Shown piece after piece: positions 31,774 to 46,901 of a stretch of DNA of 64,000 nt. The position numbers were made by a program, and so were the translations under genes. Below the pieces are notes generated by a model. It was not told the origin of the DNA. It was given only the letters and a program-made list of their open reading frames with translations, and ran no database searches. Where the stretch lies: NCBI GenBank assembly GCA_903820035.1, contig CAIJFT010000066.1:62001-126000 (forward strand). Direction: 5' to 3'. Position 1 is the stretch's first letter. The number at the start of each line of letters is the position of its first letter. This stretch comes from an uncultured Opitutia bacterium. GTDB lineage: Bacteria; Verrucomicrobiota; Verrucomicrobiia; Opitutales; Opitutaceae.

Positions 31774-32796
31774 TCAGCGCGCGCCGTTCGCCTTCAGCCA
31801 GGCGACGGTGACGTCGGTGAAATCCGTGAATATGCCGTCGACGCCCGCGGTGCGGAAGGCCGCGACGTGCAACGCTTCGAACGACGGGCAATTTTTCGGC
31901 AGTTCGTCGCGGCGCAAGGTGTACGGGTGCACGGCGAGTTTGGCGGCGTGCGCGAGTGCCACAAGTTCGGTGACCTTCGGCGCGGCGCCAGCCGCGGGCC
32001 ACGTCACGATGCGCCCGAGCGGAGGCCCGATGCCATCGGCGACGGCGGCCAGTTCCTTGAGGCCAGCGGGTGAAGACAGGTACGTGAAGTCGCTGCCGTC
32101 CTCCTCCTTGGCCTTCGTGCTGTAGAGTTGGATCAGGCGCCCTTTCCAGCCGAGCTCGTTCCGCAGCCGCTTGACCTCGGAATATTCAAAGCACTGCAGG
32201 AAGCAGGCGTCGGCTTTGGTCGCGTAGCCGTAACGCGCGAGGACCGGCAGCACGATCTTGCTGATGTCGTGACCCTGCTCGCGGTGCCACTTCGGCTGCT
32301 TGATCTCCGGATAAATCCCCGCCACGCGGCCGGTGCTCCGGTTGAGGCCCTGAATGAACTGCAGTTCCTCCTCGAGCGTCGAAACGGCAAACGTCGACGG
32401 TGCGTTCGTCGAGTCGTAGCGCAGGGCGTACACCGGCAGCCCGGTCTTGGCGTTGAAGCGCTCGCGGACGCGCAGCTGTTTCAATTCGGCGAGGCTGAGG
32501 TCGAGGGCGTAAAAACGCCCGTCGGCGCGCTTGCGGTCCGGGAAGCGCACGGCGACATCGCTCACGGTGTCGAGGTAGATGTCATGCAGCACGACCGGCA
32601 CATCGTCCCTGGTGAGCACGATATCCTGCTCCAGATAATCCGCCCCGAGGGCATGCGCGTAGGCCTTGGCCGGCAGCGTGTGCTCCGGCACATAGCCGCT
32701 GGCGCCGCGGTGGGCGATGACCAGCGGGCCGGCGGCAGAGGCGGTGTGCGCGACGAGACCGAGCCAAAACGCAGCGAGGAGGACGGATGTTTTCAT
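31774..32796 (-). CDS. glpQ: secreted glycerophosphodiester phosphodiesterase
   Basis: A 340-residue periplasmic enzyme of the GDPD family that hydrolyses glycerophosphodiesters (deacylated phospholipids) to glycerol 3-phosphate and an alcohol. A signal peptide covers residues 1-21. The catalytic/metal motif IAHRGASGYVPEHT gives His29, Arg30 and Glu38; EQD (56-58) and VVLHD with His71 complete the site. The length and the inserts are like the long periplasmic GlpQ, not the shorter cytosolic UgpQ. A MFS carrier of the GlpT type lies 191 bp upstream, followed by a second phosphodiesterase. Together they form a logical hydrolyse-and-import set for glycerophosphodiesters. Confidence 0.93.
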   Translation of the reverse strand: MKTSVLLAAFWLGLVAHTASAAGPLVIAHRGASGYVPEHTLPAKAYAHALGADYLEQDIVLTRDDVPVVLHDIYLDTVSDVAVRFPDRKRADGRFYALDLSLAELKQLRVRERFNAKTGLPVYALRYDSTNAPSTFAVSTLEEELQFIQGLNRSTGRVAGIYPEIKQPKWHREQGHDISKIVLPVLARYGYATKADACFLQCFEYSEVKRLRNELGWKGRLIQLYSTKAKEEDGSDFTYLSSPAGLKELAAVADGIGPPLGRIVTWPAAGAAPKVTELVALAHAAKLAVHPYTLRRDELPKNCPSFEALHVAAFRTAGVDGIFTDFTDVTVAWLKANGAR

Positions 32797-32987
32797 GCGA
32801 GGTGAAACTACAAAGGGGAGCCGATCAGCCAGAAACCCGGAGAAGCGAAACCGCTAATCTTCGCTTATCTCCGCTCATACGCTACCCCGTATTCAGCCGC
32901 CTTAAGCCACGATCCGGGACTCGGGGTGAACGGGTTTTTCATCTTGGATCGAGATGCAGTCCTTGGATCCGCGCCGATTAGCGACGA

Positions 32988-34355
32988 TTAGCGGTTAAGA
33001 CCGCCGGCTCCCTTCGCCCCCTCGCTGCTCGTCGCGCGGTGGCCGAGGGTCAGGGCGCTGAACACCATCGTGAGCACACAGCACACGATCATCGTGGAAA
33101 AAACGCCGGTCCAGCCGAAGTGAACCTCGATCCACCCCACCCCGGCGCCCGACGGGGCGGAGCCGAGGAAGTAGCCGAAGAGGCCGGTGAAGCCGGCGGC
33201 CGTGCCCGCGGCTTTCTTCGGGACGAGATCGAGCGCGTGCAGGCCGATCATCATGATCGGGCCGTAAATGAAGAACCCGATTGCGATGAGCGACGCGATG
33301 TCGATCCAGAGCGGGCCCTTGCCGTTGAGACCGTAGACCACAAGGCCGCCGAGCGTGAGGCCCATGAACAAAATCGTCGCGGGGGCGCGCCGGGCCTTGA
33401 ACACCTTGTCCGAAAGCCAGCCGCATAAAATCGTGCCCGGGATGCCGGCGAGTTCGAACGCGGTCCACGCGAGCCCCGATTCCTTGAAGTTGAATCCCTT
33501 CGCCGTCTGCAGGTAAGTCGGGATCCAGTTGGAAACGCCGTAGCGCACGAAGTAGACGAACGCGTTGGCGATCGCGATCGCCCAGAGGTATCGGTTATTC
33601 AGCACGTACGTGAGGAAGATCTCCTTGAACGTAAACGTGCGCTCGTGTTCGGCCGAATAATTCGGCGGGTAGTCGTTCTTGAACCGCTCGATCGGCGGGA
33701 GTCCGCAGCTCTGCGGCGTGTCGCGGACCAGCAGCAGCACGACGCCGGCGACGGCGGCGGCGATGACCGCGTTGAAATAGAACGTGGCCCGCCAGTCACC
33801 GAAATACCCCACCGCCCACGTCGCAAAAACCGCGATCAGCGCGCCGCCGACGTTGTGCGCAACATTCCACGAGGAGACGGTGCGCCCGCGCTCCTTCGTG
33901 CTCCACCAATGGACCATCGTCTTGCCGCAGGGCGGCCAGCCCATGCCGTTGCACCAGCCGTTCAGCGTCTGCAGCGCCACGATCACGAAGAGCGAACTGT
34001 AGACGCCCGGGATCGTGCCGAACGCGAACGTCACCGCGCTCGTAAGCAGCAACCCGAGGGCCATGAACCAGCGCGGATTGCTCCGGTCGGACACGGAGCC
34101 CATGAAAAACTTCGAGAAGCCGTAGGCCGTGAGCAGGCCCGTCATCGCCCAGCCCAGCTGCACCTTCGAATACTCCGGGTGCGCCTTGAGAATCGCCGGC
34201 ATCGCCAGCGCGAAATTATTCCGGACCAGGTAAAACGCCGCGTAACCAAGGAAGATGCCCGTAAACACCTGCCAGCGCAGCTGACGGTAGACGGAATCGA
34301 CGCGGTCCGGCGGCAACGGCGGCGCCGCCGGGGCGGGCTTAAGCAGGGAGATCAT
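32988..34355 (-). CDS. MFS glycerol-3-phosphate/organophosphate transporter (GlpT-like)
   Basis: A 455-residue inner-membrane carrier with about twelve hydrophobic segments. The N-terminus contains YAAFYLVRNNFALAMP with the Arg of the phosphate-binding site. The signature of the organophosphate:Pi antiporters is seen in NGMGWPPCGKTMVHWW. The late loop GWLSDKVFKARRAPA is also typical. I chose the ATG at 34355; the open frame starts 12 residues earlier without a better start. It is flanked on both sides by glycerophosphodiesterase genes on the same strand, which supports glycerol 3-phosphate import in exchange for phosphate. A hexose-phosphate sensor/transport role (UhpC type) is less likely here. 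Confidence 0.88.
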   Translation of the reverse strand: MISLLKPAPAAPPLPPDRVDSVYRQLRWQVFTGIFLGYAAFYLVRNNFALAMPAILKAHPEYSKVQLGWAMTGLLTAYGFSKFFMGSVSDRSNPRWFMALGLLLTSAVTFAFGTIPGVYSSLFVIVALQTLNGWCNGMGWPPCGKTMVHWWSTKERGRTVSSWNVAHNVGGALIAVFATWAVGYFGDWRATFYFNAVIAAAVAGVVLLLVRDTPQSCGLPPIERFKNDYPPNYSAEHERTFTFKEIFLTYVLNNRYLWAIAIANAFVYFVRYGVSNWIPTYLQTAKGFNFKESGLAWTAFELAGIPGTILCGWLSDKVFKARRAPATILFMGLTLGGLVVYGLNGKGPLWIDIASLIAIGFFIYGPIMMIGLHALDLVPKKAAGTAAGFTGLFGYFLGSAPSGAGVGWIEVHFGWTGVFSTMIVCCVLTMVFSALTLGHRATSSEGAKGAGGLNR

Positions 34356-34405
34356 GGGAGTGAGACGGCAAACCGGCCGGGCTGTCGGCAACGCAAACGC
34401 TTGAA

Positions 34406-34430
34406 CCAGGAGAACGGGAAGATCGGAGAG
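34406..34430. repeat. purine-rich intergenic repeat
   Basis: The 25 bases here (core AGAACGGGAAGATCGGAGAG) match the left arm of the inverted repeat at 25095-25160 at about 22 of 25 positions. The segment is in the 103-bp gap between the phosphodiesterase and the GlpT-like gene. The pairing right arm is not obvious here, so this may be a half copy. Confidence 0.45.
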
Positions 34431-34458
34431 CCGGAGACATCCGCACGAATTCGATTCG

Positions 34459-35280
34459 TCACAACTTCAGCTGCTCCCGCAGCCAGCCGGAGCGGTTGGT
34501 CGTGATGCTGATCGCACCCAGTTCGATCCAGTGCTTCGCCACCGCGGGATCGTCGACCGTCCACACGTGCAACTCGAGCCCGGCGTCCTGGATCTGCTTC
34601 GTCTCCGCCGCGGTCAACGGCCACGTGCTTTGCAGGTCGAGTCCGGTCAAACCGGCCGTCTTCGCCTGGGCAATGACCTCGTCGAGCGTGGGCTGCGGCT
34701 TCCCCTCGGTCTTCTTGCCATCGGCTTTTTTGTAGCCGACCAGGTACTGCGTTTTGTACGCCGGCAGCCGCTTCCGCACCTCCTGCAGCGACGCGTAGAC
34801 GAAGCTGATGAACGTGATGTTTTTCTCCGACCCACCCGCGCGCTGCAACGTGCGCTCGAGCTCGGGCAAAATCTCCGGCCCAACCTTGATCTCGACGAAC
34901 ATCCGCTTGCCCGCGGGGATGAGCGCAATCTGTTCGTCCAGCGTCGGCAGCTTTTCGCCCGCGAATTGCTCCCCCTTCCACTTGCCGGCGTCGAGCGTCC
35001 GCAGCTCCGCGAAGGTCATGGCCGTGATCGTCCCCGGGTGCCCGGTCGTGCGCTGGGTCGTCTTGTCGTGGCAGACGATGATCTTTCCGTCCTTGGTGAG
35101 GTGGATGTCATTCTCGACGACATCCGCCCCGTCCCGCCACGCGAGTTTCTCCGAGGCGAGGGTATTCTCCGGCGCGTCGAACGACGCGCCGCGGTGGGCG
35201 ACGATCTCGACGGCGGAGGCGGCGGAGGACATGAGGCAGAGCGCGGCGAGGGCGCGCAGGGAAATCGGGCGGGAGGGCAT
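34459..35280 (-). CDS. secreted glycerophosphodiester phosphodiesterase (second, shorter)
   Basis: A 273-residue GDPD enzyme with a signal peptide (residues 1-23). The active-site motif IVAHRGASFDAPENT supplies His29, Arg30 and Glu38; VENDIHLTKDGK (Glu56, Asp58) and IIVCHD (His71) complete it. The spacing is identical to that in the longer paralogue at 31774, but this one has the compact C-terminal half (FVEIKVGPEI, LDLQSTWPLT, HVWTVDD) typical of UgpQ-like enzymes. A cytosolic type with an export signal is a little unusual. The ATG at 35280 starts the signal peptide; the upstream extension to 35373 is repeat-derived. It probably works with the GlpT-like carrier 103 bp downstream. Confidence 0.92.
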   Translation of the reverse strand: MPSRPISLRALAALCLMSSAASAVEIVAHRGASFDAPENTLASEKLAWRDGADVVENDIHLTKDGKIIVCHDKTTQRTTGHPGTITAMTFAELRTLDAGKWKGEQFAGEKLPTLDEQIALIPAGKRMFVEIKVGPEILPELERTLQRAGGSEKNITFISFVYASLQEVRKRLPAYKTQYLVGYKKADGKKTEGKPQPTLDEVIAQAKTAGLTGLDLQSTWPLTAAETKQIQDAGLELHVWTVDDPAVAKHWIELGAISITTNRSGWLREQLKL

Positions 35281-35395
35281 GGGGAAAGCAACCTTGAGAG
35301 ATGAGAGTTGAGGGCTGAGAGTTCGGAAAGCGCGTAAAATGCCGGCGGGCCTAGGATCGAGACCCTCAACCACCCACTACCGGCGCCGCGCCGGC

Positions 35396-38300
35396 CTAGA
35401 ATTTCTTCGCAAACTCCATCGTGAACTGACGGCCGCGGGGGTTGGCCGAGCCGGACACGTACCCGTACTGCTCGTCGGCGAGGCGCGGGATCGTATCGAG
35501 GACGTTGTTGATACCGCCGCGCACGCTCACGCCGTTCAGCCACGACTTCTCCCGGCGCTCGAAGCGGTAGGACATCCAGACGTTGTGGTTGTACGACGGG
35601 CTGACGCGGAACAGGTAGCGGGTGACGCCGTTGTCGTTGAAGATTTTGATGTAGCTCGGGTAGCCGAGCGCCCTGGTGATCGGCTCCGTCGTCGCCGCCG
35701 AGGTGTCCACAAACGAGCCGAAGTAGCTGCCGAACCAGCCCGCGGAGAGCGGGCCCTGGCGCCACGCAACCGACGCATTGGCACGCCAGCTGACGCGGCC
35801 GTTGCGGTCCAGTTCATCGACCAGCGGGGAAAGTTCATCCGCCTTCGAGCGGCGTAGCACGTAGTGCGTGGCCTCGGTGTTGAAAGTGAAAGTGCCGAGG
35901 CGGGTCTTCGGTCCGCGCCATTGGACGCCGATCTCATAGCCCTGGATGTCGCGCCCGCTCAGGTTGAGGTAGTCGTCGATCACACTGATGAACTCGCCCA
36001 CCGGGGCGCGGCGCGCGGCATTCGTCGTCTGCTTCGCGTTGAACGCGGCAAAGGCCGCCTTGTCCGCCTCGGTGACCGGGCGGCGCACGATCTTACTCGA
36101 GCCCTTGTACGCAGCGCTGCCGGAGCCGAGGTCGATTTTGTCGATCGGCGTGCCCTTCGCGAGTTCGGCCTGGGTGGCGAGATCGAGCATGATTTCGTCG
36201 AGGTCGATTGCGGGACCGGCGCCGAAGTTCTCGATCACCTTGTTCTGGTTGATGCGGAAGTAGTCAAACGTCACGGACAGCCCGCGGACGCTCGGCACTT
36301 CGAGGACGAGGCCGCCGGACCAGGTTTTGGCCTGCTCGGGCTGGAGGCTCTGGTTACCCTGGCGGTACGACGTGCGCTGCGCGGTGCCGTCGGACACCAA
36401 GTTCGTCACCTCATGGCGGTACGGATCGTCGGCGCTGATCTGGCGACGGAGCGGCGTGATGTTGGTCTGCACCAGATTCGGCGCGCGAAAGGACTCCGCG
36501 ACCGAGCTGCGGAGTTTCAGGCCCTGGAACGGTTTCCAAACCAAGCTGGCCTTCGGCTTCGTTGTCTGGCCGAAGATCGAGAAGTGCTCGTAGCGACCCG
36601 CGAGCGTGAGCTCGAGCGCGTTGAGCAGCGGTGCGCGGTTTTCGCGCGTCACGAACGGCAGGGCGACTTCGAGGTAGCCCGCGAAGATCGTCTGGTGCGC
36701 GGTGATCGGCACATTCGAACTGAGCGCGAGAAAGTCGTTGTCGCCTTCCCGCAGCAGCGGGAACTGGCTCGCCGAGCCCGGGGGATTCAGGCCGACGTAA
36801 GGCGCGCGCTGGTCGGCGTAACTCTCGTAGCGCACCTCGGTGCCCGAGGCGACGCCGATGCGGCCGCCCTGGAAGAGCCGGCCGAGCTGGCCGTTGATCT
36901 TGGCGTCAGCCAGGTAGAAGCCGGTGCGACCGAAGCGGTCCTCGTCGCCGTAAATCGGATCGATGACCGACGTCGGGTTCGTGAACAGCTGGTCGACCAC
37001 GATCTGGTTATTGACGATCTTGAAGGTGACGGGGAACGGGTTGAGCGCCGTCGCGTCGGTGCGGTTCAGCGCGGCGCGCAGCTTCGACTCGCGCACCTGG
37101 AAGTGCTCGTACTCGTGGGTTTGCGCTTGGGACGCGACGATCGCGGATTCCCATTCCCAGTTCTGACCGAGTTTGCCGCGCAGGCCGCCGAGCACGCGCC
37201 AGGCGTAACTCCAGACCTCGGTCACGCGCGGGTTGAAACCGCCGCCGGTGTTTTGGCCGGGCGAGACGCCGGTCCAGATCGAGACATCGGCCGGCGCGCC
37301 CGTGAGGCGCGGCGTGCCGTCGGCGTTGGGCGCGCCCGTCGGCGAATAGAAACGCACGCCGAACGGGTTGTAGGGATTCGTCGCCGGCAGGTAGATACCC
37401 TGGTCATCGGTGTTCTTCGCGTTCACCGGCTCGCGACCGGTACGGCTGTAGGCGCGGTAAAAGAGCAGGTCACCAAAGAAGGCGAGACGGTCGCTGATCG
37501 GGCGGTCGATGAAGGTCGCGAATTGCACGCGATCGGTGGACGGCACGAGCACCTTCCATTTGTTCCAGTTGGAAAAAGCCGCGACTTCGGCGTTGTCGAT
37601 ATTGGTGCTCGGCGCGGTCTGCTTGAACATCACGCCATTGGCACTCGGCCAGAGGTAGAACATGCCGTCGGTCGCCATCGTCGCAACACCCGCCGGCGGC
37701 GTGGTGCTGGTGGTGATACCGGTGTTGCCCGTCGGGCGCGAACCGATGAAGGTAAGGAAGTCGGGTTGAATCGTACCGCGCTGCCACTGACCCCACTGGT
37801 TCACGGCGTTGGCGTTGCGAAAATCGTTGTCGCGCGAGAAGACGCCGCCGGTGGCGGGGTCGACGACCGGAATGCCGTTCCACGGGGCGGGCAGCGTGCG
37901 GTTCACGCGCAGGTCGGAGTTGTTGGCGTACCAGCGGTCGTGGGCCGCGAGGGCGTCGCGGTGAAAATAATCCAAAGAGACGGAGACGTGAGCCTTGTTC
38001 ACCGTGAAGCCGTCGTAGAGCGTGGCGTTGAACTCGTTGGCGCCGCCGTGCTGGGTCATCGAACCCTTCAGGGTAAGGCCGCGCCCCAGAAAGCTGCGGT
38101 TAACGCGGTTGTTGATCACGCCGGCGGCGGCATCAGAGCCGTACACGGCCGAGGCGCCGTCGCGGAGGATCTCCACGCGATCGAGGAGCGCGCGGGGGAT
38201 GGTGTTGATATTGACGGCGAGCGAGGGCACGCCGTTTTCGGCCATCGAGACCGGGTGCGGGGCCATGCGGCGGCCGTTGAGCAGCGTCAGCGTGCTGCCG

Positions 38301-38641
38301 GAGCCGATACCGCGCAGGTCCACCGAGGCCACGTCGCCCCGGGCGAGTTGCGGTCCGTTGTTGAGCTCGGTGATCGCGGAAATGTCGGCCGCGCCGAGCG
38401 TCTCAAACAACTCCGCCATCGTGGCCGCGCCGCGGGCGTCGAGATCAGCCGCCTCGATCACCGTGACCGGCAGGGCGGTTTCGGCGTCGACGCGCTTGAT
38501 ATTGGAACCGGTGACCACGAAGGCCTCCAACTTTACGGCCCCATCCGTTTTGGCCGCGGGCCCCACCGGGGCGAGTTGCGCGTGGGCGCTGAGTCCCGCC
38601 GCCAAACAGAGGGCGACAACAACAATACGAGTGGGGGTCAT
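35396..38641 (-). CDS. TonB-dependent outer-membrane receptor (phosphodiester locus)
   Basis: A 1081-residue receptor. The signal peptide (residues 1-22) is followed by a TonB-box-like VKLEAFVVTGSNIKRVD, a plug domain (residues about 45-175; LPVTVIEAADLDARGAATMA, DVASVDLRGIGSGSTLTLLN, VEILRDGASAVYGSDAAAGV) and a large barrel ending in GRQFTMEFAKKF. It has no STN or carboxypeptidase-like domain. It is the same subfamily as the receptor at 41948. It is 115 bp upstream of the shorter glycerophosphodiesterase. A rho-independent terminator lies upstream of it (38825-38854), so it begins its own transcription unit. The substrate is inferred to be an organophosphate. Confidence 0.93.
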   Translation of the reverse strand: MTPTRIVVVALCLAAGLSAHAQLAPVGPAAKTDGAVKLEAFVVTGSNIKRVDAETALPVTVIEAADLDARGAATMAELFETLGAADISAITELNNGPQLARGDVASVDLRGIGSGSTLTLLNGRRMAPHPVSMAENGVPSLAVNINTIPRALLDRVEILRDGASAVYGSDAAAGVINNRVNRSFLGRGLTLKGSMTQHGGANEFNATLYDGFTVNKAHVSVSLDYFHRDALAAHDRWYANNSDLRVNRTLPAPWNGIPVVDPATGGVFSRDNDFRNANAVNQWGQWQRGTIQPDFLTFIGSRPTGNTGITTSTTPPAGVATMATDGMFYLWPSANGVMFKQTAPSTNIDNAEVAAFSNWNKWKVLVPSTDRVQFATFIDRPISDRLAFFGDLLFYRAYSRTGREPVNAKNTDDQGIYLPATNPYNPFGVRFYSPTGAPNADGTPRLTGAPADVSIWTGVSPGQNTGGGFNPRVTEVWSYAWRVLGGLRGKLGQNWEWESAIVASQAQTHEYEHFQVRESKLRAALNRTDATALNPFPVTFKIVNNQIVVDQLFTNPTSVIDPIYGDEDRFGRTGFYLADAKINGQLGRLFQGGRIGVASGTEVRYESYADQRAPYVGLNPPGSASQFPLLREGDNDFLALSSNVPITAHQTIFAGYLEVALPFVTRENRAPLLNALELTLAGRYEHFSIFGQTTKPKASLVWKPFQGLKLRSSVAESFRAPNLVQTNITPLRRQISADDPYRHEVTNLVSDGTAQRTSYRQGNQSLQPEQAKTWSGGLVLEVPSVRGLSVTFDYFRINQNKVIENFGAGPAIDLDEIMLDLATQAELAKGTPIDKIDLGSGSAAYKGSSKIVRRPVTEADKAAFAAFNAKQTTNAARRAPVGEFISVIDDYLNLSGRDIQGYEIGVQWRGPKTRLGTFTFNTEATHYVLRRSKADELSPLVDELDRNGRVSWRANASVAWRQGPLSAGWFGSYFGSFVDTSAATTEPITRALGYPSYIKIFNDNGVTRYLFRVSPSYNHNVWMSYRFERREKSWLNGVSVRGGINNVLDTIPRLADEQYGYVSGSANPRGRQFTMEFAKKF

Positions 38642-38855: not shown

Positions 38856-40178
38856 TCACGCCGGCCGCCGGCTCCAGGTGGTAAGCAACAACAGCGCCCC
38901 GATCACCGCGGCGATCCCGTAGAACCACAGCACGCCGTCCCAACCATAATGGTCCGCGAGCCAGCCCGTCCCCACCCCACATACCGTGGCGCCCAGGTAG
39001 CCGAGCAGTCCCGTCAGGCCGACCGCGCTCGACGACGCGGCCTTGGTCGCAAAGTCCGCCGCGGCCACCGCAATCAGCATCTGCGGTCCGTAGACGAAGA
39101 ATCCGATCGCGATAAAAACGAGGCTCATCGTCAGCACCTGGCCACGCGGCACGACGAAGAGCGCCGCGACGCACGCGATCACAAACAACATGAACGCCAC
39201 CGCGACCGGCCCGCGGCGGCCCTTGAACACCTTGTCCGAGAGCCAGCCCGCCGCGTAGGCGCCGAAGACGCCGGCAATCTCGAAGCCCGAAAGCGAAAAT
39301 CCCGCCTCCTTGAGGTTGAAGCCCTTCGCTTCCTGCAGGTACTTCGGCGCCCAGTCGAGGATGCCGATGCGCACAATGTAGACGAAGAAGTTCGCGACGC
39401 TGACGATCCACACCCACGGGTTCGTGAGGATATACTGACGGAACACGCTCCAAAACGGCGCCGCCGCATCCGCCACCGAGCCGGCCGGCGCCCCGTCGCG
39501 ATAAACTTCGACCGGCGGCAAACCCATCGACTCCGGCGAATCGGTCAGCCGGTTTAACAACCAAAAAGCCCCCACGATGCACACCAGCGCCGGCACCCAA
39601 AACGCCGCGCGCCATCCGTAATGAGACACCAGCCACCCGGCCCAAATCGCGATCACGGCTCCGCCAATCTGGTGGGACGCGTTCCAGATGCCCCAAGCCC
39701 GGCCGATCTCGCGCGGGCTATACCAACTGGTGAGTAAACGCACGCAGGGCGGCACGCCGGCCCCTTGGAAGAGGTTGTTCAAGGCCCAGCACGCGATGAA
39801 GAACCCGAGCCCCGAGCCAAACCCGAATACCAGGTTCACGCACGCCGAGAACAACAAGCCGAGCGCGAGGAGATAACGCGGATTCGCCCGGTCGCCGACG
39901 ACGCCGCTGAAGAACTTGGAGAACGCGTACACAATCGTCGCGACGCTGAGCACGAGCCCCCATTGCGTATTGCTGAAATGAAACTCGTCGGTGATCGCCT
40001 TCGCGGCCATCGAGAGGTTTTTGCGGACGAAGTAGAATAAAGCGTACCCCGTCGTCATCGCGTACATCACCCGCACCCGCCAATGCCGGTAAAGCCGGTC
40101 GATCTCCGCGGAATCCGACAGCGGCGGCGCCGGCGGTTGGGCGCGGAGAGCGGCGCCGAGACGGGACGCGAGACTCAT
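38856..40178 (-). CDS. MFS organophosphate transporter (GlpT/UhpC-like)
   Basis: A 440-residue inner-membrane carrier with about twelve hydrophobic segments. Family signatures are YALFYFVRKNLSMAAKA at the first membrane segment, GDRANPRYLLALGL, FQGAGVPPCVRLLTSWYSP and GWLSDKVFKGRRGP. It is a diverged paralogue of the carrier at 32988. The ATG at 40178 lies 10 bp after the stop of the NADAR gene, and the gene ends just before an intrinsic terminator. It is therefore the last gene of a unit that starts with the STN receptor. The substrate is probably a phosphorylated sugar or glycerol 3-phosphate released by the phosphate-related enzymes encoded upstream; this is inference. Confidence 0.88.
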   Translation of the reverse strand: MSLASRLGAALRAQPPAPPLSDSAEIDRLYRHWRVRVMYAMTTGYALFYFVRKNLSMAAKAITDEFHFSNTQWGLVLSVATIVYAFSKFFSGVVGDRANPRYLLALGLLFSACVNLVFGFGSGLGFFIACWALNNLFQGAGVPPCVRLLTSWYSPREIGRAWGIWNASHQIGGAVIAIWAGWLVSHYGWRAAFWVPALVCIVGAFWLLNRLTDSPESMGLPPVEVYRDGAPAGSVADAAAPFWSVFRQYILTNPWVWIVSVANFFVYIVRIGILDWAPKYLQEAKGFNLKEAGFSLSGFEIAGVFGAYAAGWLSDKVFKGRRGPVAVAFMLFVIACVAALFVVPRGQVLTMSLVFIAIGFFVYGPQMLIAVAAADFATKAASSSAVGLTGLLGYLGATVCGVGTGWLADHYGWDGVLWFYGIAAVIGALLLLTTWSRRPA

Positions 40179-40188
40179 CGGCGGAGGC

Positions 40189-40773
40189 TCACCGCTTCGC
40201 CGCCGACTTTTCCGCGGCGAGCCGCGCCCGCGTGTCCATCAGCACGCGGCCAAGCAGATTCTGCCCCTTGCCCTTGAAGACGCCCCAGATCTCGTCGCCC
40301 CACCAGTTCGTTTCCTCGAGCACCTTGTCCCCGGTCGCGAGCAGCTTGGTCGCCAGTTCCGGGTTCTGCGAAAACTTCGCCCAGATCACCTCGCGCATCG
40401 TCCGCTCCTTCCGCGTCTCCCACGCCGCCGTGTCGTACGATTTCGTCCGCGACAGCTTTTTCGCCGGATCGGGATCGAGCGTCGTGAACCCATCGCGCTC
40501 CGCGGCGGGATACTTGCCCGACTGGTACGCCGCCTCCGTCGAACGGTACACGCGTCCCTCCCACTCCACGCGGCAGGGCAAGAAATTGCTCAGCCAGCGG
40601 TACTCGCCGACGAAGCCGCCGATCTTCTTCGCATCGTGGACGACGCCCTCAAACGGTTCGTCCCAGTTCGGCTTCTTGACCGCGGGCGCGGCGGCGGGTG
40701 ATTCGGCGGCAAACAGCGGCGCACCGAGCAGGGCGGCCGAAAGAAGCAGGCCAGACAGGCGGAGGATTTTCAT
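40189..40773 (-). CDS. NADAR-domain protein with an export signal
   Basis: A 194-residue protein of the NADAR (YbiA/RibX) family, whose members are N-glycosidases acting on ribosylated or ADP-ribosylated bases. The family motifs are intact: GEYRWLSNF (residues 56-64), RVYRSTEAAYQSGKY with Glu80, FSQNPELATKLLATGDKVL, TNWWGDEIWG (156-164) and GKGQNLLGRVLM with Asn172. Unusually, it begins with a typical cleavable signal peptide (MKILRLSGLLLSAALLGAPLFAAE), so the product should be periplasmic, whereas known members are cytosolic. Its start overlaps the stop of the phytase-like gene by 4 bp and its stop is 10 bp before the MFS gene, so it is firmly part of that operon. It may release bases or ribose phosphates from nucleotides for uptake. 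Confidence 0.88.
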   Translation of the reverse strand: MKILRLSGLLLSAALLGAPLFAAESPAAAPAVKKPNWDEPFEGVVHDAKKIGGFVGEYRWLSNFLPCRVEWEGRVYRSTEAAYQSGKYPAAERDGFTTLDPDPAKKLSRTKSYDTAAWETRKERTMREVIWAKFSQNPELATKLLATGDKVLEETNWWGDEIWGVFKGKGQNLLGRVLMDTRARLAAEKSAAKR

Positions 40774-41927
40774 GGGGAAAGCGGGAACACCTCGAAAACC
40801 CAGAATTGGGTTTCCTGAGCCAAGGAGAAATTGTCGTCGGACACCACCACGAGGGTGGCGTGACCGTTGGGCAGGCGTCGGCCCCAGGCCAAACCCTCGA
40901 GGTTATCGACGGACCGGCCGGCCGGCGCAGTGAACTCGAACACCAGACGCTTCGTCGCCGGCCGAACGTGCGCCGCCACCAAGGATGGAACGGCGCCGAC
41001 GTCCGTCGCCGCGGTGAAGTCCGCGGCGTACAGCCGCACGGCATAATGCCACGCGCCCGCCCCGTCCTGCGCGCCGGAACGCTCCAACACGAGCAAACCG
41101 CCATCGGGCTGGGCCAGAATCTCTGCCACGCCGTTATCCGCGAGCCGGTCCTTCGCCGGCGGCAAACGCCATGGATCGAGCGGGTAAGCGTACTGCGCCT
41201 GCCGCCTGCCCCGCCGGTCGATGCGCGTGAACCGCGTCAGCGCGCCGGCCCGCGCCGAGGCCAACGGCCCGTCGCCAAAGCCCGGCGCCTCCAACGCGAG
41301 CCAGACGCCGTCGCCGTCCGCGGTGAACGCGATCCCCTCCATCGCCAGATTCGGCCGCACGCCCGGCCGACCGTCGGGCGCGAACGCATGGCCGGGCGGC
41401 AACGGCACCGTCGAAAAAAACGTCCCGTCGCGGCTCGCGCGGCGCACGAACGGATTCAGCCCGAGGGCGCGGTCGCCCTCGCTGGCGTACCAGATCGAAC
41501 CGTCGTGCGGGTCCAGCCGTACCGCCTCGATATCCGGCACGTCGCCGCGTCGGTCCGCGAGAAAGTGCGGCTTGTCCGGATACGCGGATCCGTCCGGTTG
41601 CCTCAGCACGGTCACGCCTTCGATCGCAACGGCCCGCAAGGCCGTCGCGTCGTAATCAAGGCGGACGCTGAAGATGCGCGCCGGACCAAATTCCGCCTTA
41701 TCGTCACTCGCCGCCAGCCAGCGGTCGGCCGCCACGTCGTAATCAAGCGCGGACAGGCCACCGACCACCGCCCCATGCGCCACCGACCTCGCCGGCAGCG
41801 CCCGGAAGCCGATGAGCCGCGCGGCGCCGACGTTGGCCGCGACGTCTGCGCCCCAAGCGACGAACGCCGCCACGCCCCACCCTGCCACCGCCCATAGGCG
41901 AAGACGGCGGAGCAAAGGTCTGGGCAT
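40770..41927 (-). CDS. secreted phytase-like esterase (PF13449-type propeller)
   Basis: A 385-residue protein with an N-terminal hydrophobic signal (residues 9-26, RLWAVAGWGVAAFVAWGA). The rest is a beta-propeller of the esterase-like-activity-of-phytase type. Recognisable blades include VVGGLSALDYDVAADRW, DIEAVRLDPHDGSIWYASEG, NLAMEGIAFTADGDGVWLA, ADNGVAEILAQPDGGLLVLE and NLEGLAWGRRLPNGHATLVV. Such proteins are predicted phosphoester hydrolases acting outside the cytoplasm. It starts 20 bp after the STN receptor gene and overlaps the NADAR gene by 4 bp. It likely liberates phosphate or a phosphorylated product that the following MFS carrier imports. The family is firm; activity is not proven for this fold. 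Confidence 0.85.
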   Translation of the reverse strand: MPRPLLRRLRLWAVAGWGVAAFVAWGADVAANVGAARLIGFRALPARSVAHGAVVGGLSALDYDVAADRWLAASDDKAEFGPARIFSVRLDYDATALRAVAIEGVTVLRQPDGSAYPDKPHFLADRRGDVPDIEAVRLDPHDGSIWYASEGDRALGLNPFVRRASRDGTFFSTVPLPPGHAFAPDGRPGVRPNLAMEGIAFTADGDGVWLALEAPGFGDGPLASARAGALTRFTRIDRRGRRQAQYAYPLDPWRLPPAKDRLADNGVAEILAQPDGGLLVLERSGAQDGAGAWHYAVRLYAADFTAATDVGAVPSLVAAHVRPATKRLVFEFTAPAGRSVDNLEGLAWGRRLPNGHATLVVVSDDNFSLAQETQFWVFEVFPLSP

Positions 41928-41947: not shown

Positions 41948-44900
41948 TCAGAAATCCTTCTTCACCTTCAGATAGATGAAGCGACCCAGCGACCACGGCG
42001 CGTACGTCGCGATGTCGAAGCCATAACTCGGGATCGCCTTACCGTTCGCCGGCGGCTCGGAGCCGAGGAGGTTATTGCAGCCGAGGGTCACGCGGGTGCC
42101 CCAGGGCGCGTCGACCGAAGCGGTGCCGTTGAACAAAAACTGCGTATTTTCGTCCCAAGCCGGCGCGAACTGGTCCATCCGGTAGTGGCCCTTGAACTGC
42201 GTGCCGAGAGTTGCACCGACCTTACCCTTCTTCCAGCCGACCTGGCCGGAGCCGGCGAGCCGCGGGTTGTTGTAGCGGCCGGCCGTATTCACGTCACCGA
42301 GACCGCTGCCGGCATTGAGGGCAAAGGTGTCGGTGTAGGTCACCTGCCCGCTGAACATGAAGTCGCCGAGCCGCGTGCCGCGGAGCCGGTAGTCGGCGCC
42401 GAGGTCCAAGCCCTTCCACTGGTAGCCGGCGGCGTTGATCGTCTTGGCGTCGAAGTACTGAATCAGCCCGGCGGCGTTGCGCACGACGCGCTGCGGGAAG
42501 AAATTGAAGAAGGTGGTCGGCGTCGTGAACGACGTGATGACGTTCCGCAGCCCGATGTCGAAGTAGTCGGCGGTAAAGCTGAGCCCGCGGACCCACTTGC
42601 CGAGGTCGAGCACCACGCCGCCATACCACACGCGGCCTTTCTCCGGCTCGAGGTCGCGGTTGCCGGCGGCGACGAACGGATAGGGGTTGAGTCCGGCCGC
42701 CGGATTGCGCGGATCCGCCACGGCCGCGGTGAAGGTCGTGATGGAAGGCTGGTAAAGTTGGCCGATGTCGGGCGCCTTGAACGACGTCGAGTACGAGCCG
42801 CGCAGCTTGAGCCAGTCCACGGGTTGCGAAACGACGGCATACTTCGGATTCAAAGTGGAGCCGAAGGTGTCGTAACGGTCGTGGCGGCCGGCGACCTGTA
42901 GCGTGAGGTACTTCGGCAGCACCGGCACGGCAAGTTCGGCGTAGGCCGAAGCTACGATCCGGCGACCCGAGTACGGCAGATCACCGATGGTGACGAGGTA
43001 GCCGACGGGGTCCGAGTGGTTATCGAGGTTGTCCTTGCGGTGCTCAAATCCGACCGCCAGCGAGACGTCGCCGGCGGAACGCTGGTTGCCGAACGCGGGC
43101 ATCGCGAAGAGCGGGCCGCTCGCGGCCACATCGTAGCCGACCGTGGTGCTCTTGGAATTGGCGGTGGAGGAGACGAAGAGGCTGTTGACCAGCGCCTGGT
43201 TGGCCGAGGGCCCGAAAGGGTTGAAGAACTGCCCGTTGAAGCCGGCGAGCGTGCCGTTGAGCGCGGCCTGCATGTCGGAAGTGCGGATCTGGTTGCCCGC
43301 GACCTGGTCAAAGAGACTCGTGCCGTAGATGAAGCCGGCGGACCAGTTCCAGTCGCCCGGCAGTTTGCCGTCGAGCCCGAGGAGGGTCGTCGTGCCCGTC
43401 GTCTCGACGTCGAAGAGCCGGGTCGGGCCAAAATTTCCGCGGCCGCGGAAATTATTCAGCGCGACGCCGAACGGATTGTACGGGTTGTTGGTCGGGATGG
43501 TCAGGAACGAGCCGTCGGCGTTGGTGATCGACTGGCTGTTGATCGAGATCGGCGTGTAGACGATGCCGGTGAGATTCTTGTTCGCGAGGAATTGCACCGA
43601 CGCGCGGACGTTGTCGCTCAGATTGCGCTTGGCGCTGAGCATGGCGGACAGGTTCTCCTGGTCGGGCGTCAGCTGCGTGGTCGGCGCGAAGTCGTAGCGG
43701 TTGGCGTTAGTCGCGGCGTTCTGGTTGGCGCCGGCGTAGGAGAAGTTCGACACCCGCGGGCCGGCGGTCGGCTGGCCGCCGGTGACGACGTAAAAGCCGG
43801 CGCCGTTGGTGAAGCCCGCGGCGGTCGCCTGCGCAGCGGTCAGCGTGAGGTTGAACGGAAAATTACTCGGGCTGTTGTTGTTCTGCCCCTTCACCGTTCC
43901 GAAGGCGGCGAGGTAATCGGTGGTCTTCGAGCGGTCGTAGTCGCCGGCGAAATTGGCGTTCTGCTTAAACCAATTGATGTTCACCAGAAACGAACCCTTC
44001 GCCGAGGTGTCGCCGGTGAGCAGGCTGAGACTGCGCGTGCCGGTGTCGTGACCGAAGGTGTTGCCGTACATCGCGGAGGTGGAGAAGCCGCTGTAGTTGG
44101 CGCGGAGCTTGATGTTCATCACACCGGCGATGGCGTCGGTGCCGTAAATCGCCGATGCGCCGTCCTTGAGGTACTCGATCGACGCAATTGCCTCGGTCGG
44201 GATGCTATTCAGGTCGAAGACCGAGCCGCCGCGGTTGTCCGGCAGGCCGTAGCTGGAGGGCCGCTTGCCGTCGAGCAGGACGAGAAAGCGTCCGGCGCCG
44301 AGGCCGCGCGGGTTGAGTGTCACCGCACCGCGCGCAAACGGCACGCTGCTCACGGGATTCGCCGCCGGCACGCCGATCGAGTTGGTCGTGCCGCTGTTGA
44401 ACGAAAGGCTTTGCAGGAAGTCACCGGTGGTCTGAAAACCGCGCGCGTCGATCTCCTCCTTCGCGTACGCCGCGATCGGCTGTGGGCCCTCACCTTCGAG
44501 CCGGCGGATGTGCGAGCCGGTCACCTGATACGCCTTCATCCGCACAGTGCCTTCCTCGACGGCGGACGGGGCGGGAAGCGCGACCGGTTTGACGGCTTCA
44601 GCCCGGGTGGCAGCGGGGGTGACGGGCGCTGCGGGTGGCGCCGGCGCCTTGGCCGGGATCGCCGCCACGGCGACGATCCACTTGCCGCTCGCGCTCCGCG
44701 AGGCCGCAAGACCGGTGTCAGCAAGCAGGCGGATCATGGCCTCGGCCGGCTCGTGCGTGCCGGTGAGGGCGTTCGTGCGCACACTGTTTACTTGATCGAA
44801 GGCGAAGAGCACCTCTGCGCCGGCCTGTTTCGAAAACGCCAGCAACGCGGCTCCGGCCGGTTGGGCGGGCAGGTCGAATTTAACCGGAGCAGCGGACGCG

Positions 44901-44971
44901 AGGACCGCGGCCAGACCGAGCAGACCGGCGATCAGCCGGCGTGAAAACGAAGAGCCAGAGGAAGTGCGCAT
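41948..44971 (-). CDS. TonB-dependent transducer receptor with STN signalling domain
   Basis: A 1007-residue receptor of the FecA-like transducer class. The signal peptide ends near residue 28. An STN domain spans residues 29-100 (PVKFDLPAQPAGAALLAFSK, GTHEPAEAMIRLLADTGL), followed by a proline/alanine-rich linker. The plug domain begins at about 143 (AYQVTGSHIRR; LEYLKDGASAIYGTDAIAGV-type stretch) and the barrel ends in FIYLKVKKDF. The STN domain signals occupancy to a FecR-type anti-sigma factor, and exactly such a gene lies 68 bp upstream, followed by an ECF sigma gene. Downstream are the phytase-like, NADAR and MFS genes. This is the only one of the five receptors in the window with an STN domain. 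Confidence 0.94.
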   Translation of the reverse strand: MRTSSGSSFSRRLIAGLLGLAAVLASAAPVKFDLPAQPAGAALLAFSKQAGAEVLFAFDQVNSVRTNALTGTHEPAEAMIRLLADTGLAASRSASGKWIVAVAAIPAKAPAPPAAPVTPAATRAEAVKPVALPAPSAVEEGTVRMKAYQVTGSHIRRLEGEGPQPIAAYAKEEIDARGFQTTGDFLQSLSFNSGTTNSIGVPAANPVSSVPFARGAVTLNPRGLGAGRFLVLLDGKRPSSYGLPDNRGGSVFDLNSIPTEAIASIEYLKDGASAIYGTDAIAGVMNIKLRANYSGFSTSAMYGNTFGHDTGTRSLSLLTGDTSAKGSFLVNINWFKQNANFAGDYDRSKTTDYLAAFGTVKGQNNNSPSNFPFNLTLTAAQATAAGFTNGAGFYVVTGGQPTAGPRVSNFSYAGANQNAATNANRYDFAPTTQLTPDQENLSAMLSAKRNLSDNVRASVQFLANKNLTGIVYTPISINSQSITNADGSFLTIPTNNPYNPFGVALNNFRGRGNFGPTRLFDVETTGTTTLLGLDGKLPGDWNWSAGFIYGTSLFDQVAGNQIRTSDMQAALNGTLAGFNGQFFNPFGPSANQALVNSLFVSSTANSKSTTVGYDVAASGPLFAMPAFGNQRSAGDVSLAVGFEHRKDNLDNHSDPVGYLVTIGDLPYSGRRIVASAYAELAVPVLPKYLTLQVAGRHDRYDTFGSTLNPKYAVVSQPVDWLKLRGSYSTSFKAPDIGQLYQPSITTFTAAVADPRNPAAGLNPYPFVAAGNRDLEPEKGRVWYGGVVLDLGKWVRGLSFTADYFDIGLRNVITSFTTPTTFFNFFPQRVVRNAAGLIQYFDAKTINAAGYQWKGLDLGADYRLRGTRLGDFMFSGQVTYTDTFALNAGSGLGDVNTAGRYNNPRLAGSGQVGWKKGKVGATLGTQFKGHYRMDQFAPAWDENTQFLFNGTASVDAPWGTRVTLGCNNLLGSEPPANGKAIPSYGFDIATYAPWSLGRFIYLKVKKDF

Positions 44972-45039: not shown

Positions 45040-46029
45040 TCAGCGGCGGCCGACACGGGCGCCGCCGTCAGCCAGACGCTCGACCCGCACCGCGGGCAAC
45101 GCGCGTTCGAGGTCCTTGAGAAATCCGTCGAGGTCGTCGAGGCCGAAGCGGCCGCCGAGCCGTTCGGCCGCGATCTCGGGCGCAACGGAAATCGTCCGGC
45201 CGTGAAACGCCGCGAAACGTTGCAAAGCCTCCCCGAGCGGTACCGCGTCGAACACCACCCAGCCGTCGCGCCACGCCGCGGCCTCGGCGGCAACCTCGGG
45301 CCGGACCCGGCGCAATGCCACCCGGCCCGTGGCCAAAGCCACCTGATCGCCGACGCCGAGGTGCAACGGTTCCGACGTCGCGGTGCCGGCGCCGGGCTGC
45401 ACTTCAACGGTGCCCTCGATCACCGACACTTCCAGCCGGCCCGAGGCGTCGGTACGGACATTAAAGACCGTGCCGGTTACGCGCACCCGGCCACCGGGTG
45501 TCTCCACGATGAAGGGACGTTCCGGATTCTTCGCCACGTTGAAAAACACCTCGCCGCGCTCAAGGTGCACGAGCCGGCGATGTTCGTCGCTGAAATCCAC
45601 CTTAAGGCTTGTCTGCGCGTTGAGGTCCGCGCGGGTACCATCCGCCAGGGCAATTGACTGCCGGTGCGACGGCGGCGTGGAGATCGCGCGCTGCTCCGTC
45701 ACCGGAGCCCCGAGCCACAGCCCGAGGCCGATCGCGGCAGCGGCCGCCAGACCCGCCGCGGGCGCCCAGCGCCGCCAAACTGGACGCGCAACCGCGGCGG
45801 TTTCGCGACCGACGTCAAAGGCCCCGTCCGCCACCAGCGCCGGTAGCTCGCGCTCCAGGTCCGCGCTGAACTGGCAGAACTGTGAAAGCTCGGCGCGGCG
45901 GGCCGGATCCTCCGCGAGCCAGGCATCCAGCGCGCGTTGTTCCGCCGCGGACAACGGCTCGCCCTCAAGCCGCACGGCCCAGCGGGCGGCGGCGGCTTCG
46001 TTCAAGGCAGTCGTTTTACGGGCGCTCAT
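45040..46029 (-). CDS. FecR-family anti-sigma/signal-transduction protein
   Basis: A 329-residue single-pass inner-membrane regulator. The cytoplasmic N-terminal domain (AARWAVRLEGEPLSAAEQRA, FxxWLAEDPARRAEL-like) contacts the sigma factor. One membrane segment lies at about 93-110 (APAAGLAAAAAIGLGLWLG). The periplasmic FecR domain contains the typical SIALADGTRADLNAQTSLKV, LERGEVFFNVAKNPERPFIV and VRVTGTVFNVR. The C-terminus (AVPLGEALQRFAAFHGRTI) is the STN-like region that meets the receptor. The ATG at 46029 overlaps the stop of the sigma gene by 4 bp (ATGA). The frame continues upstream only as an overlap with the sigma gene. It should hold the sigma factor inactive, or activate it, in response to the STN receptor 68 bp downstream. 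Confidence 0.94.
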   Translation of the reverse strand: MSARKTTALNEAAAARWAVRLEGEPLSAAEQRALDAWLAEDPARRAELSQFCQFSADLERELPALVADGAFDVGRETAAVARPVWRRWAPAAGLAAAAAIGLGLWLGAPVTEQRAISTPPSHRQSIALADGTRADLNAQTSLKVDFSDEHRRLVHLERGEVFFNVAKNPERPFIVETPGGRVRVTGTVFNVRTDASGRLEVSVIEGTVEVQPGAGTATSEPLHLGVGDQVALATGRVALRRVRPEVAAEAAAWRDGWVVFDAVPLGEALQRFAAFHGRTISVAPEIAAERLGGRFGLDDLDGFLKDLERALPAVRVERLADGGARVGRR

Positions 46030-46604
46030 GACTGCGTGCCGGTGACCGGCAAATAGGTTTCCGAGGGCTCGGTCCCCGTCGCTTCCTCCGGCGGGGCCGC
46101 GAGGGCGGCGCGCAACAGGCGCAACGCGCGCACATGCTGCTTTTCCACCGTGCTGCACGAAACGCCGAGCCGTCGCGCGATTTCCTTGTGAGGGAGCAGT
46201 TCCACTTTGCGCAGCAAAAGGACCGCCCGACACCCCGGCGGCAGCTGGGCGATCGCCCGCTCGAGTTGGGCGAACTCCTGCCGCGCCATGACGATCTGCC
46301 GCACACCCGGCGCCGGCGACATCGCGCCATCGAGCACCTCGTGACTCGCCGTCTGCGTGCGTGCGAGGTCCCGGTGGCGGATCCGATTGATGGCGAGTCG
46401 CCGCGCGGTCGTGTAGAGAAATGCCTGCGGCGCCTCGACCTGGCCCTTCTTGACCGCCGGGTAGACGCGCGCGTACGCATCGTGCGCGAGGTCCTGCGCG
46501 TCCGCGCTGCTTCCGATCAGCCGCGCCAGATAACGCCGCAGCGGCGCCACCGTCTGACGGTAGAAGCCGGCAAAATCATTCGTGTCGGTCGGGAGCTCAG
46601 CCAT
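46026..46604 (-). CDS. ECF RNA polymerase sigma factor (FecI-like)
   Basis: A 192-residue extracytoplasmic-function sigma factor. Region 2 is seen in FAGFYRQTVAPLRRYLARLI and DAQDLAHDAYARVYPAVKK, and region 2.4 in AFLYTTARRLAINRIR. Region 4 is AIAQLPPGCRAVLLLRKVEL and HKEIARRLGVSCSTVEKQHV, a helix-turn-helix for the -35 element. I chose the ATG at 46604, which has GGGG about ten bases upstream; an ATG at 46622 is possible. It is the first gene of a sigma-FecR-receptor set and probably drives the receptor-phytase-NADAR-MFS genes. Confidence 0.94.
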   Translation of the reverse strand: MAELPTDTNDFAGFYRQTVAPLRRYLARLIGSSADAQDLAHDAYARVYPAVKKGQVEAPQAFLYTTARRLAINRIRHRDLARTQTASHEVLDGAMSPAPGVRQIVMARQEFAQLERAIAQLPPGCRAVLLLRKVELLPHKEIARRLGVSCSTVEKQHVRALRLLRAALAAPPEEATGTEPSETYLPVTGTQS

Positions 46605-46901
46605 ACGATGCCCCTTCCCCATGTCGTCGGCCGCGCTCCGGGGCAAACGCGGAATGGCGCCGCCTTCGCGAGCCTCCCCACTCCCGGCTGGTCTGGACCT
46701 GATCACGCATCGAACCCATGCGGGGAGTCAGACACGTGACGCGGCGAAAACCACCCCTGGGCCTCGAACTTCTATTTAATGGCCGGCCGGCAACGCCGGA
46801 CCAACGGGCGGTCCTGCACCGGAACGCCACGAGGCGGCGAGCCACCTTAAACTCCCGCTTGCCCGCGTCGCGGCGCCCCTTCACCGTCCGCGCCAAAGTT
46901 C
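46605..46901. other. divergent intergenic region, 297 bp
   Basis: This gap lies between the sigma factor gene (minus) and the E1 dehydrogenase gene (plus). It holds the only AT-rich tract nearby (TTCTATTTAATGG around 46770-46782), which could be part of a promoter. I see no palindrome, RNA gene or convincing small ORF. The open frames within it are arginine-rich and non-coding in character. Confidence 0.45.

Follow-up and report, generated by a model that had tools for sequence, protein, structure and literature searches.

Conserved gene run around an Opitutaceae NADAR gene

The 64,000-nucleotide stretch analyzed here (the window) covers positions 62,001 to 126,000 of contig CAIJFT010000066.1 from an uncultured Opitutia bacterium of the family Opitutaceae, and the subject of this study is a NADAR-domain gene that it carries. 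The gene lies in a minus-strand run that encodes, in order, an ECF sigma factor, a FecR-type regulator, a TonB-dependent receptor, a phytase-like protein, the NADAR protein and a major facilitator superfamily (MFS) carrier of the organophosphate (OPA) type, with successive intergenic gaps of -4, 68, 20, -4 and 10 bp. The 4-bp overlap of the NADAR gene with the phytase-like gene and its 10-bp distance from the MFS gene, both reported in a preliminary description of this DNA, are seen on that strand. The operon of phytase-like, NADAR and MFS genes proposed there holds, and the receptor, the sigma/FecR pair and additional N-ribosidase genes found in related genomes are added to it here. The features of the run are as follows.

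40189..40773, minus strand: NADAR protein of 194 aa, predicted to be exported (PF08719, 83.8 bits; E80, K87 and E154; structural match to YbiA and 8bau)
40708..40773, minus strand: signal-peptide-like N-terminus, residues 1-22 (rule-based; cleavage point judged by eye)
40219..40605, minus strand: NADAR domain, residues 57-185 (Pfam)
40770..41927, minus strand: phytase-like protein (PF13449, 244.2 bits) with signal-peptide-like N-terminus and predicted beta-propeller structure
38856..40178, minus strand: MFS carrier of the organophosphate (UhpC/PgtP/GlpT) group (PF07690, 185.6 bits)
41948..44971, minus strand: TonB-dependent receptor with an N-terminal STN-like stretch (PF00593, PF07715; STN recognized by eye)
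45040..46029, minus strand: FecR-type regulator (PF04773, 84.3 bits, scored on the longer frame 45040-46233)
46026..46604, minus strand: ECF sigma factor (PF08281, PF04542, scored on the longer frame 46026-46706)

The presence of sigma factor, FecR and receptor genes in one run is the gene layout of a FecIRA-type cell-surface-signalling TonB operon, and residues 17-106 of the receptor are touched by the FecA model at 28.8 bits, a score far under its cut-off. A single NADAR was found in the source genome, which is 98% complete. Nine proteins of the window region scanned against Pfam included no ADP-ribosyltransferase, and no riboflavin gene was found among the nine scanned neighbours of the NADAR gene.

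To what extent is this arrangement conserved? An alignment of eight NADAR sequences (the window protein, those of six other genomes of the family and that of contig L026, described below, without that of genome G243) gave 13 matches at E <= 1e-10 in a search of 252 family genomes. Eight of these, scoring at least 266 bits, define the clade considered here (the window, G211, G216, G160, G129, G043, G037 and G243); the remaining five scored at most 73.3 bits and were taken as ordinary NADARs. Phylum-wide, six of 387 genomes matched, two of them in the clade. The matching records are labelled Opitutaceae, Opitutus, Opitutae or Verrucomicrobia, and records L021-L025, which are the same genomes as G129, G216, G211, G160 and G043, were counted once.

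The preliminary description had made much of the neighbouring genes, and these are indeed conserved: the order receptor-NADAR-carrier is kept in all eight clade genomes, with the G129 carrier and receptor cut by contig ends. A phytase-like gene stands ahead of the NADAR gene in seven of the eight operons, in one of them (G037) as a fusion, and the sigma and FecR genes lie upstream in all six operons whose contigs extend far enough. Conversely, the phytase orthologue occurs in eight of the 252 family genomes, seven of which have the NADAR; the eighth is G182, whose contig begins 1.0 kb before the gene, and receptor, NADAR and carrier were not found in the 12 kb at this orthologue. Across 15 pairs from six sequences, the ratio of nonsynonymous to synonymous polymorphism (pN/pS) is 0.16-0.32 in the domain part of the NADAR gene and 0.39-1.19 in its N-terminal part, the latter as expected where hydropathy, and not the sequence itself, is preserved. 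Because the domain ratio is low and the gene order recurs in eight of eight genomes, the presence of the NADAR gene at this place is more than chance.

Individual operons have further neighbours. In G243 a DUF6282 gene (204.4 bits; L054:8184-9098) follows the carrier on the same strand, and in G043 a gene convergent to the carrier (L013:4321-5490) encodes an adenylate kinase of 389 aa that has two kinase-like parts.

A ninth clade member, L026, lies in a metagenome-assembled genome labelled Deltaproteobacteria; its contig showed no operon partners, and searches of the L026 and L027 genomes, made without a positive control, also found none. In L026 (2305-3832) the stretches on either side of the clade member encode peptides similar to each other, as though it had been inserted next to a gene that was duplicated. 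Relatives on plasmids, found in 25 records, are all below 60% identity, with matches beginning at residue 39 or later; on one Nocardia plasmid (L101) two NADAR-family genes are separated by about 2.3 kb. The Saccharibacteria NADARs closest to the clade (L028, L029) are 38-44% identical. At two of three Saccharibacteria loci they adjoin a ruvA-like gene and lie near HIT- and ruvB-like genes, recognized by eye, and this neighbourhood suggests a cytosolic, DNA-related role for them.

The NADAR domain, its active site and its predicted fold

The domain scored well above the Pfam cut-off of 35.1 bits and is complete, as had been claimed from the translation, with WLSNF (60-64), Glu80, NWWGD (156-160) and GKGQNLLG (168-175) all present; the G243 protein has NWWND in place of NWWGD. 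The active-site residues E43, K50 and E125 named for the P. nicotianae NADAR in the available text of PMC11543638 correspond, in a phmmer alignment, to E80, K87 and E154 of the window protein, and these three residues are invariant across the eight aligned rows. Of the 11 named ADP-ribose contacts, nine are identical in the window protein, two of which vary in one aligned row each, and the other two are replaced (R93 by Lys and D86 by Thr). The last-strand Glu that marks the YbiA family, in place of Asp or His, is present, with a register uncertain by one position (E153 or E154) that gives a Glu either way.

A structure of the NADAR protein predicted from eight rows has a predicted local distance difference test score (pLDDT) of 66. 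The best of 39 aligned chains was YbiA 2b3w (Z 12.8, root-mean-square deviation (rmsd) 3.1, 136 residues aligned) and the second was the ADP-ribose-bound NADAR 8bau (Z 11.8, rmsd 3.8, 140 aligned); comparison with 8bat gave Z 6.1. The window protein is like E. coli YbiA/COG3236, a riboflavin intermediate N-glycosidase, in domain, fold and last-strand Glu, and differs from it in scoring below the riboflavin-model cut-off, in its predicted export and in its place in an organophosphate operon; YbiA is cytosolic. The stand-alone P. nicotianae NADAR (8bau) has the same fold and most of the same ADP-ribose contacts, but the window protein differs at D86 and R93, is predicted to be exported, is bacterial and has operon partners. 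The DarT1-associated NADAR antitoxins (DarTG1) belong to the same superfamily and share the active-site E and K, whereas they carry Asp where the window protein has Glu (PMC11543638, available text) and the window gene has no adjacent ADP-ribosyltransferase among its scanned neighbours.

The best NCBIfam match is TIGR02464, the model for the riboflavin intermediate N-glycosidase, and all three members scanned fall below its equivalog-domain cut-off of 73.7 bits (window 62.3, G037 58.7, G243 68.7). A riboflavin role was rejected on the basis of this score and of the nine scanned neighbours, none of which is a riboflavin gene. The DS32_2 anti-phage NADAR model NF053876 gave 46.2 bits for the window protein, far under its equivalog cut-off of 240; toxin-antitoxin and anti-phage roles were rejected on this score and on the absence of an adjacent ADP-ribosyltransferase among the nine proteins.

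Two other readings of the domain have to be weighed at this point. One is that it has shifted to a different N-glycoside phosphate; examples would be an intermediate of riboflavin type, a cobamide's nucleotide loop or an antibiotic that resembles a nucleotide. TonB receptors import large compounds of such kind, and it is the riboflavin model that matches best; however, no scanned member reaches that model's cut-off, and the AMP nucleosidase genes present in four of the eight operons (see below) would be left unaccounted for, and we judge this reading unlikely. The other is that the exported NADAR removes ADP-ribose placed by foreign ADP-ribosyltransferases on extracellular nucleic acids or nucleotides, with the operon link reflecting scavenging of the released ADP-ribose or being secondary. 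Guanine de-ADP-ribosylation has been shown for several NADARs, according to the available text of PMC11543638, PMC11833690 and PMC11125620, but the constant partners here are a TonB receptor, a phosphoesterase-like protein and an organophosphate carrier rather than a toxin, and the anti-phage score is low, so that this reading appears very unlikely.

Evidence for export of the NADAR protein

A fundamental question is whether the NADAR protein acts inside or outside the cytoplasm. N-termini were classed as signal-peptide-like by a home-made rule that asks for an uncharged hydrophobic core, a net positive n-region and small residues at -3/-1. By this rule the signal peptide that the preliminary description placed before the NADAR domain is present in the window protein and in eight of the nine clade members overall; L026 is 'partial', having a hydrophobic core with no K/R ahead of it. 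A control set of 13 NADARs was listed, of which 10 were tested (L051-L053 being left out), and none of the 10 had a signal-peptide-like core from any start codon. The likeliest cleavage of the window protein, judged by eye, is between LFA and AE after residue 22, and the rule's first allowed site is after residue 17. Among the partners, four of four phytase-like proteins were signal-peptide-like, and the carrier and the G216 AMP nucleosidase were not.

The natural fusion in G037 is the strongest evidence on location. Here the phytase-like and NADAR domains are encoded in one uninterrupted frame behind a single signal-peptide-like N-terminus; the junction is a short linker with Pro/Ala, and the hydrophobic segment with which a NADAR of this clade otherwise starts is missing. 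Had an error simply joined two frames, this segment would be expected to remain. Since the fused protein has one signal-peptide-like N-terminus, the NADAR domain would therefore lie outside the cytoplasm. COG3236 is itself cited, in the available text of PMC4921024, among cases where gene fusion led to function.

Could the start codon simply have been placed too far upstream, so that an ordinary cytosolic NADAR lies in a chance neighbourhood? The rule is crude, and the G243 protein requires a TTG start codon. However, the window gene overlaps its upstream neighbour by ATGA, a signal-peptide-like start is found in eight of nine members, the gene order is kept in eight of eight genomes, and in G037 the NADAR domain is C-terminal to an exported protein. 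A mis-called start was rejected on the grounds of the G037 fusion and the signal-peptide-like N-termini of the clade, and we regard it as extremely improbable. The extracytoplasmic role put forward in the preliminary description thus stands as regards location and operon membership: taken together, the G037 fusion and the order kept in eight of eight genomes strongly support a predicted extracytoplasmic NADAR that belongs to an organophosphate-uptake operon.

The phytase-like partner and its replacement in G243

The predicted structure of the phytase-like protein (pLDDT 85) is a propeller whose closest match is YjiK (Z 21.0, rmsd 2.5, 226 aligned), followed at Z 13-17 by phage tail proteins, NHL domains, sugar-acting enzymes, paraoxonase and diisopropylfluorophosphatase (DFPase). 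The first 50 Foldseek matches are chiefly propellers, with TM-scores of 0.29-0.38 by query, and no solved relative was found by sequence at E <= 1. The predicted propeller fold neither proves nor excludes phosphoester hydrolysis.

G243 is without the phytase-like gene and has instead an open reading frame (ORF) that comes after the NADAR gene, overlaps it by 4 bp and has a signal-peptide-like start. Its matches are weak: Pfam S1-P1 nuclease at 13.9 bits (E 0.05, under the cut-off of 29.5) and an NCBIfam dipeptidase at a sub-threshold E of 0.044. No relatives were found in 223 genomes of the order, and no solved relatives (best E 0.7). The mature protein could start W-G-x-x-x-H, and it carries HxxxDxxxxxH and HxxxE; W1, H6 and these two motifs match the arrangement of zinc ligands in P1 nuclease and in the phospholipase C of B. 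cereus. This pattern weakly suggests that the ORF may encode a protein like P1 nuclease or phospholipase C that stands in for the phytase-like protein.

The probable organophosphate carrier

The window carrier scored 390.8 of 564 against UhpC, 374.7 of 407.75 against the PgtP subfamily and 337.8 of 632.55 against GlpT in NCBIfam. All three scores are below their cut-offs, and these best matches form the OPA group; the carrier is thus likely to work as an OPA-type organophosphate carrier. Its residues R52 and R270 presumably occupy the places of the phosphate-binding arginines of GlpT.

A carrier orthologue occurs in 17 of the 252 family genomes at E <= 1e-120, and the G129 copy, cut by its contig end, is not among these. 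Ten of the 17 genomes are without the NADAR and the phytase orthologue, and therefore the carrier alone has other uses. The carrier was rejected as an operon marker, as most of these 10 genomes show no operon neighbours. In one of the 10 (G006; L082:5141-11238) the orthologue lies between a TonB receptor gene and a PF01663 phosphodiesterase/nucleotide pyrophosphatase gene, with gaps of 119 and 198 bp and without a NADAR, a context that fits nucleotide-type substrates. In G094 a histidine phosphatase gene lies beside the carrier on the opposite strand, and in G148 a gene for a phosphonate-binding protein follows it.

A second organophosphate block adjoins the operon in the window (31774-38641, minus strand) and contains genes for a TonB receptor, a GDPD phosphodiesterase and a GlpT-like carrier (581.0 bits against the TIGR00712 cut-off of 632.55). 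A second GDPD-like gene in this block (31774-32796) was recognized by eye.

Second N-ribosidase genes in the operons

In four of the eight operons (G043, G129, G160 and G216) an AMP nucleosidase gene is found between the NADAR and carrier genes. The G216 protein scored 418.1 bits against the NF005500 equivalog cut-off of 264, and the other three are 83-90% identical to it. An AMP nucleosidase is encoded elsewhere in the genome in all seven clade genomes searched (G243 being left out; G200 is the same genome as G216, and G201 the same as G211), so a second copy is found only in the four with an operon gene. The four operon proteins form one group in a tree of 11 sequences with support of 94/95, just below the tool's mark for firm support.

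In G037 a LOG-family gene (L018:9339-10016) begins 10 bp after the carrier, and a second LOG gene lies elsewhere in the genome. The operon protein scored 181.0 bits against the TIGR00730 cut-off of 96.35 and meets the PGGxGTxxE motif as PGGVGTLDE. From the ATG at 9339 it would have a hydrophobic start (core mean 2.98) preceded by one K and one E, and it would fail the full signal-peptide rule. With this hydrophobic N-terminus, it may be a nucleotide phosphoribohydrolase that is exported. Hydrolysis of AMP by LOG enzymes yields adenine (PMC4979012), and one LOG, called a predicted exported protein, cleaves AMP, GMP and CMP (PMC6864091), as stated in the available text of these sources.

LOG and AMP nucleosidase act on nucleotides by hydrolysing the N-ribosyl bond (PMC4979012, PMC6864091, available text), which is the reaction type proposed for the NADAR; they are distinct from the NADAR in being of unrelated families and encoded by accessory genes in some operons. 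Genes of unrelated families with a base-stripping reaction in the NADAR operons are the best clue to the chemistry. The preliminary description had proposed that base is split from ribose phosphate and that the product is imported; the AMP nucleosidase (four of eight operons) and LOG (one of eight) genes lend independent support to this proposal.

A model for organophosphate uptake and its alternatives

Based on these features, we consider it fairly probable that the window NADAR is an exported N-ribosyl hydrolase in an operon that takes up an organophosphate of the nucleotide or ADP-ribose type. In this model, the TonB-dependent receptor would bring the compound into the periplasm and may also signal via FecR and the ECF sigma factor. 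The phytase-like propeller, or the candidate P1 nuclease/phospholipase C-like protein in G243, would hydrolyse a phosphoester or pyrophosphate bond, and the exported NADAR, in which the catalytic residues are present, would hydrolyse the N-ribosyl bond to free a ribose-phosphate compound. The OPA-type carrier would then import a sugar phosphate or mononucleotide, and the operon AMP nucleosidase (cytosolic) or LOG, where present, would strip the base from AMP to give ribose 5-phosphate, as expected from their families. The Flavobacterium PusCD loci resemble this operon in having a TonB-type receptor, periplasmic phosphodiesterases and inner-membrane organophosphate carriers, and differ in being of the SusCD type, in having other regulators and in that the available text mentions no NADAR (PMC8115612).

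Several observations weigh against this model. The proposed N-ribosyl hydrolysis and its substrate are derived from active-site residues, family and neighbours, and the evidence for export consists of a crude sequence rule and one fusion. Within the NADAR itself, D86 of the ADP-ribose site is a Thr, and the YbiA alignment pairs the catalytic Glu with E153 rather than E154. The phytase-like fold resembles non-phosphatases too, and the G243 ORF matches no family above cut-off. Three of the eight operons (the window, G211 and G243) have neither AMP nucleosidase nor LOG, and the G037 LOG scored 151.4 bits against the cut-off of 300 for the cytokinin-nucleotide phosphoribohydrolase equivalog NF058542. 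Finally, the carrier also occurs in the 10 genomes without the NADAR and phytase orthologue.

What, then, would the substrate be? One answer is that the same pathway works on nucleotides of RNA or DNA, such that a phosphodiesterase yields 5'-nucleotides, some of which are split by the periplasmic NADAR and the rest by AMP nucleosidase or LOG. The dedicated AMP nucleosidase and LOG copies and the P1 nuclease/phospholipase C-like ORF in G243 favour this answer. However, the NADAR substrates reported in the available literature are ADP-ribosylated guanine and riboflavin intermediates, with plain nucleotides not among them, and nine of 11 ADP-ribose contacts are kept. We regard plain nucleotides as a real possibility, though less likely than not. 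This confidence overlaps with that in the general uptake model, from which it differs in substrate only, and the two need not sum to one. On balance, NAD or ADP-ribosyl compounds would be slightly ahead of plain nucleotides as the substrate; the rationale is that the handling of AMP and the conserved pyrophosphate contacts match both parts of ADP-ribose. In its most specific form, the operon would be a dedicated locus for extracellular NAD or ADP-ribose, which would enter intact via the TonB receptor and be dismantled by the exported NADAR and a periplasmic phosphoesterase, with ribose 5-phosphate and AMP imported and used; we offer this form tentatively, as somewhat doubtful.

The available NADAR literature deals with riboflavin damage control, swarming, trans-splicing, antitoxins and viral uses, and an exported NADAR is not reported in the available text of its open-licence part. 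The physiological targets of stand-alone NADARs are said to remain unknown (PMC11543638, available text). What appears to be new here is a YbiA-type NADAR in a new place, predicted to be outside the cytoplasm, and in a new gene partnership. The conserved operon, together with the natural fusion and the additional N-ribosidase genes, offers a directly testable route to the target of a stand-alone NADAR. If the uptake model is true, NADAR chemistry would be used outside the cytoplasm for nutrition, and if the locus is indeed devoted to NAD or ADP-ribose, a catabolic, nutritional role would be added to a superfamily whose descriptions so far concern riboflavin damage control and conflicts that involve ADP-ribosylation.
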